A stretch of DNA of 64,000 bases from NCBI GenBank assembly GCA_023657465.1, contig JAGTJX010000003.1, positions 561,889 through 625,888 on the forward strand, written 5' to 3'. The DNA is from Lysobacteraceae bacterium (lineage in GTDB: Bacteria; Bdellovibrionota; UBA1018; JAGTJX01). The translations under genes were made by a program, and so were the position numbers. The notes beneath the pieces were generated by a model that was given only the letters and a program-made list of their open reading frames with translations, ran no database searches and was not told the origin of the DNA. Every line of letters starts with the position of its first letter. Positions within the stretch are counted from its first letter, which is position 1. Shown here in pieces: positions 6,344 through 54,650 of the stretch.

Positions 6344-6425
6344 TTGTTATCAGGTTGTGGCATGAATGTGGCACGTAAATAAATTCGCTTTCCAATGCCA
6401 CATTCATGCCACAACCTGATAACAA
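6344..6425. repeat. Long palindromic element, copy 1
   Basis: Near-perfect inverted repeat with arms 6344-6373 and 6396-6425 (about 30 bp) and a 22-base loop. The inner arm is TTGTGGCATGAATGTGGCA, itself two direct TGTGGCA repeats around TGAA. The outer arm is GTTATCAGG paired with CCTGATAAC. The same inner arm occurs at 54579-54597 and, with one change, in inverted form at 54621-54639, but there the outer arm is different and still self-complementary. It sits between the convergent 3' ends of liuB and the acetyltransferase gene and has no T-tract, so a REP-like or nucleoid/replication/decay-control element is as likely as a terminator. Confidence 0.8.
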
Positions 6426-54567: not shown

Positions 54568-54650
54568 CCCTTATAAGATTGTGGCATGAATGTGGCATTG
54601 CCTAGCTCCAGGTTTTCGCGTACCACATTCATGCCACAATCTTATAAGGG
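54568..54650. repeat. Long palindromic element, copy 2
   Basis: Inverted repeat with arms 54568-54597 and 54621-54650 and a 23-base loop. Inner arm TTGTGGCATGAATGTGGCA at 54579-54597, identical to copy 1; its partner at 54621-54639 differs from the perfect complement by one base. The outer arm CCCTTATAAGA pairs perfectly with TCTTATAAGGG and is unrelated to the outer arm of copy 1. Located between the convergent 3' ends of the methyltransferase and metallo-beta-lactamase-fold genes, without a T-tract. Confidence 0.8.

Follow-up and report, generated by a model that had tools for sequence, protein, structure and literature searches.

Intergenic palindromes and a loop-borne XRE-type gene: candidate copies of a small mobile element

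Two long palindromes with perfect arms, at positions 6344–6425 (copy 1) and 54568–54650 (copy 2), lie in the stretch of DNA analyzed here (64,000 nt, referred to as the window) and raise the question of what kind of element they represent. The arms of copy 1 (6344–6373 and 6396–6425) are 30 nt long and 100% complementary, with a loop of 22 nt between them. Copy 2 spans 83 bp and features perfect arms of 28 nt (54568–54595 and 54623–54650), with a loop of 23 nt separating its 19-mers. The RNA folding z-scores of both copies lie between −10.1 and −10.6 on both strands, which is far beyond chance; the two hairpins noted originally are real. The window contains the 19-mer of the inner arm four times, compared with a mean of 0.01 in dinucleotide shuffles. 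In copy 2, the inner arm on the right side carries a single mismatch (TTGTGGCATGAATGTGGTA). The outer arms pair perfectly within each copy, as had been claimed, within arms of 30/30 paired nt in copy 1 and 28 nt in copy 2. They had also been described as differing entirely between the copies; this is wrong, as TTGTTATCAGG and CCCTTATAAGA have TTAT-AG in common when aligned from the inner arm. Neither terminator-like nor promoter-like sites were found at the two copies, and no T-tract follows the stems—in agreement with the earlier view that these are not simple Rho-independent terminators. A search of the hairpins against Rfam gave nothing at gathering score and, below threshold, only hairpin lookalikes of miRNA models.

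Table 1. Coordinates of the two window palindromes and of further features (plain numbers are positions in the window)
Feature	Position	Strand	Remark
Copy 1 (E9), left outer arm TTGTTATCAGG	6344..6354		pairs with 6415–6425
Copy 1, left inner arm TTGTGGCATGAATGTGGCA	6355..6373	+	two TGTGGCA boxes, 11-bp period
Copy 1, loop, 22 nt	6374..6395		starts CG, ends CCAA; end pattern common to most copies
Copy 1, right inner arm	6396..6414	-	exact inverted copy of left
Copy 1, right outer arm	6415..6425		pairs with 6344–6354
Copy 2 (E10), left outer arm CCCTTATAAGA	54568..54578		
Copy 2, left inner arm	54579..54597	+	
Copy 2, loop, 23 nt	54598..54620		reverse complement starts CG, ends CAA
Copy 2, right inner arm	54621..54639	-	one mismatch
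Copy 2, right outer arm	54640..54650		
Gene-bearing element E8	C2:319096-319632		
Element E13	L034:6174-6259		
Y1_Tnp-like gene of G000	G000:C2:508923-509156 (L201:1327-1863)	-	
Tandem 11-bp units of G006	G006:C1:10412-10484		
Distant Y1_Tnp gene of G006	L202:1151-1951		

The element had been reported as found twice; both window copies stand, and a search of the whole genome (G000; 2.83 Mb, 4 contigs) by arm pattern, with the neighborhoods of the matches fetched, brings the total to 13 elements, named E1–E13. These comprise 23 arm matches at ≤3 mismatches, compared with 0 for the reversed pattern. Two full arms are present in ten elements; in E1 and E7, the left arm has contracted by exactly 11 bp, the length of one unit with its TGTGGCA box, and E12 has the right arm only. 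The full element consists of an outer arm; two (sometimes more) boxes of 7–8 bp at a period of 11 bp; a loop; and the same parts inverted. The gene-less loops measure 13–64 nt and are mutually unrelated, and most of them start with CG and end with CAA once oriented. Across ten elements, the outer arm follows the consensus YTATMRGR with four positions near-invariant. Though variable, the outer arm is therefore one of the element's own parts. Insertion into the loops of pre-existing terminator-like hairpins, as suggested originally, is therefore unsupported and was rejected. In G000, the 10-mer TTGTGGCATG is found almost only within the palindromes. Its three occurrences elsewhere are at about chance level, so that unpaired single arms are essentially absent from this genome, and a reading of the arms as DNA-uptake sequences was rejected on this ground. 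A scan of the collection (257 Gb) for the 19-mer gave 39 GTDB species-genome contigs and 3 viral contigs. This is about chance level, none of these matches has an inverted partner resembling the element beside it, and the arm sequence is thus private to the lineage of G000.

The two arms of an element change in concert. For the four outer-arm bases nearest the inner arm, 36 of 40 positions agree within elements, compared with an expectation of 21.5 from arms reassigned between elements (P = 5e-5). In the alignment of the elements, 95.4% of the cells pair, and both-side changes occur in 21 cells versus 8.9 in shuffles. Covariation within elements is significant, its score being reached by 0 of 500 shuffles. 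The compensatory change of the stem proposed originally is, hence, real, but the selection for the folded form deduced from it is not forced, since template switching homogenizes the arms of inverted repeats without selection on RNA (PMC8604942, PMC8794818).

Both window copies lie between convergent genes, as originally noted: copy 1 between Carboxyl_trans (+) and GNAT (−), and copy 2 between Methyltransf_32 (+) and an ORF without a Pfam match. In the whole family, convergent-gene gaps hold seven elements (E2, E3, E4, E7, E8, E9, and E10), tandem-gene gaps five (E1, E5, E6, E12, and E13), and a divergent-gene gap one (E11). The convergent bias asked about at the outset is present across the family, with 7/13 elements versus 4/66 nearby element-free gaps (P = 1.4e-4), where orientation is the author's reading of the flanks based on a simple codon model of the author's own as gene finder. 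E13 ends approximately ten bases upstream of the likely start codon of its neighbor and, because of this position, may affect the expression of that gene.

One element, E8, carries a gene, whose protein is encoded at C2:319151-319576. Its family arms are 481 nt apart, and the loop is a single intact open frame of about 150–170 aa with an atypical codon usage that sets it apart from local genes (−0.04 per codon, where genes average 0.09 with an sd of 0.035). The gene-bearing element is present in a single copy in G000. The C-terminal half of the protein is an XRE/Cro HTH (HTH_31/HTH_3). The N-terminal part of approximately 85 aa features a conserved R-RR-x-ILL-x-x-FR and HSD and has no relatives in Pfam, NCBIfam, PHROG, or solved structures. 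Only HTH domains match in proteins of this type; no nuclease, recombinase, or HUH domain was recognized. A decayed Y1 transposase was rejected as an identity of the N-domain, as hhalign against the Y1 profile yielded a probability of 0.4% and, hence, no match. A MITE of a known IS family shares its terminal repeats with a transposase-encoding IS; here, the only gene found between the arms encodes an HTH protein without a transposase match, in searches that addressed this gene and some of the IS families.

Of 369 genomes in the phylum, 18 carry full-length homologues of the E8 protein; every one of these genomes belongs to the same order as G000, and all members of the protein family match HTH_3/HTH_31. 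Long inverted repeats tightly bracket 18 of 23 homologues, as tested against shuffled flanks, compared with 0 of 10 HTH-only XRE control genes (Fisher P = 3e-5). The bracketing repeats are lineage-specific—for example, TTATCAGGTTGTGGCATGAGTGTGGCA, CTGTTCCGTTGTCGGAAGTGTGTCGG, TAGCCATTTGTGCGCTTCGG, and GGGTACTGGCCACATTTTGGACTTTGG—and often contain short boxes repeated at 7–11 bp. Five homologues (G002, G021, G029, G045, and G038) are without a clear bracketing repeat. In G002, G021, and G029, a hairpin lies beside the gene; G045 has an 11-bp repeat; and G038 has neither bracketing repeat, adjoining hairpin, nor 11-bp repeat. The genome G013 holds three copies of the XRE-type gene (loci L109, L128, and L199), the closest pair being approximately 57% identical, and each is bracketed by a different inverted repeat.

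Dispersed cognate arms are present in three genomes: G000, G006, and G035. The arm found at the gene of G006 is matched 62 times in that genome, compared with 2 matches for the reversed pattern as control. The matches sit in palindromic loci, always in the order + then −, and the arms recur every 56–58 bp; the locus with the gene is likewise arranged ++ −−. The outer arms of G006 covary as well (TGTGCAG/CTGCACA versus TGTTCAG/CTGAACA). One palindromic locus of this genome adjoins iteron-like tandem 11-bp units (GTGTCGGACTT). In G035, the arm GCCATTTGTGCGCTTY occurs in seven inverted pairs, one of them around the gene. G022 has the bracketing pair only, with no dispersed arm copies. For four G035 palindromes, the flanking sequences were looked for in G028 and G044, two genomes of the same genus. 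Two sites, the lepA-side and the ftsW/rodA-side locus, are empty there: the orthologous gaps are short and palindrome-free, and the fetched orthologous stretches contain no arms. These empty sites come from diverged genomes of the genus, and this divergence hides junctions and target duplications.

The best explanation, given a probability of about 0.6, takes the hairpins to be copies, devoid of the gene, of a small palindromic element that is mobile or dispersing and comprises a gene-bearing master, many satellites, and an XRE-type protein. One master copy per family would encode, in its loop, a protein of approximately 150 aa composed of the N-domain and the XRE/Cro HTH. This HTH protein would recognize the boxes, which are helically phased, in the form of a duplex, a cruciform, or a single-strand hairpin, and it would promote copying that places the palindrome at further sites between genes. 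Judged from sequence, it presumably binds the arms, and it is presumably this protein and not another enzyme that drives the movement of the element. The loops would drift freely, and the arms would be kept by recognition together with homogenization by template switching. The 11-bp contractions of E1 and E7 and the 11-bp arrays of G006 agree with a protein reading a single box in each helical turn. The explanation draws on the 13-element family, the gene in the E8 loop, the bracketing of its homologues, the dispersed arms of G006 and G035, and the two empty sites; against it speak the protein's lack of a recognized nuclease, recombinase, or HUH domain, the single gene-bearing copy of G000, the five homologues without clear bracketing, and the missing dispersal in G022.

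The XRE-type protein could instead be a regulator; the palindromes would then serve as its operators or, at the RNA level, as its sites at the ends of transcripts, and the repeats around the gene would be autoregulatory. The HTH domain in all family members, the enrichment between convergent genes, and the covarying stems are in line with such a role, which is nevertheless judged unlikely: an operator normally takes the form of a single unpaired arm, and such arms hardly occur; the arms lie mostly at 3′ ends and not at promoters, only E11 (divergent) and E13 (just before a start codon) being possible operators; and the sites differ between same-genus genomes. A purely regulatory role, hence, leaves the gene in the loop, the missing single sites, and the turnover between genomes unexplained. 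Ordinary bidirectional terminators that share their sequence by chance would suit the strength of the hairpins and the many elements between convergent genes. They are hardly credible given the absent T-tract, a conservation over 19 bp that exceeds the need of a stem, and the presence of one copy with a gene, one between divergent genes, and one abutting a start codon.

Alternatively, the palindromes could be REPIN-like and owe their movement to a Y1 (RAYT-like) transposase that acts in trans, the XRE gene being cargo or repressor. A REP-type transposase had been proposed as a target to look for, and G000 does contain one Y1_Tnp-like gene. However, this gene has Q-V-H where the HUH motif normally shows H-x-H, and no palindrome arms flank it; the arms bracket the XRE-type gene instead, as they do in many genomes. 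G006 has several Y1_Tnp homologues, one of them approximately 0.7 kb from an arm pair, whereas a search of G035 gave no Y1_Tnp match despite its dispersed palindromes. A trans-acting Y1 is thus conceivable but does not suit every one of the three genomes, and this explanation is judged quite improbable.

Compared with known systems, the mobile-element reading finds its closest description in REPIN/RAYT, where short intergenic palindromes consist of two inverted lineage-specific arms and an arm-flanked cognate gene occurs in one or few copies (PMC3116915). The dispersed intergenic inverted pairs of a conserved arm and the cognate gene flanked by the same arms are found here as well. In contrast, the cognate gene encodes an XRE-type HTH with an N-domain of no known family and not a Y1 HUH protein, and the arms are long perfect stems with boxes 11 bp apart. 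Because no Y1 HUH protein lies between the arms and the N-domain has no Y1 match, the element fails the defining test of a RAYT. With MITEs and IS, the element shares terminal inverted repeats, gene-bearing and gene-less copies, and presence or absence between related genomes; it differs by gene-less loops that are unrelated to each other and to the gene-bearing copy and by lacking a recognized transposase. In iterons and ParR-type 11-bp repeats, which sit at an origin or centromere, successive boxes are spaced by one turn of the helix. The present boxes have the same spacing, with arrays in G006, but are spread over the chromosome in inverted pairs.

The open literature, as distinct from subscription papers, gave no description of XRE genes bracketed by such palindromes. 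An undescribed class of minimal mobile elements—an XRE-type HTH with a new N-domain, box-phased hairpins, and no known transposase fold—is tentatively proposed, at rather less than even odds. Such an element would spread itself and the gene-less palindromes by means of the box-phased hairpins, possibly with host replication. If right, the RAYT/REPIN life style of a cognate gene with a population of gene-less palindromes arose with a non-HUH protein, and a protein of approximately 150 aa with 80 bp of DNA offers a small testable system of palindrome spread as well as a new domain to characterize. Covarying intergenic stems of bacteria may then be mobile DNA instead of functional RNA.

Four of the Y1-like proteins of G006 (L200, L203, L204, and L205) are related to each other and have an intact H-x-H; their genes have no flanking inverted repeats well above shuffles, and one of the four is the gene near two palindrome arms. 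A more distant Y1_Tnp gene of the same genome, at L202, lies between the copies of a 21-bp inverted repeat (TCTGAGCACCTTTTGATGCCC), with which it possibly forms a conventional RAYT/REP pair.
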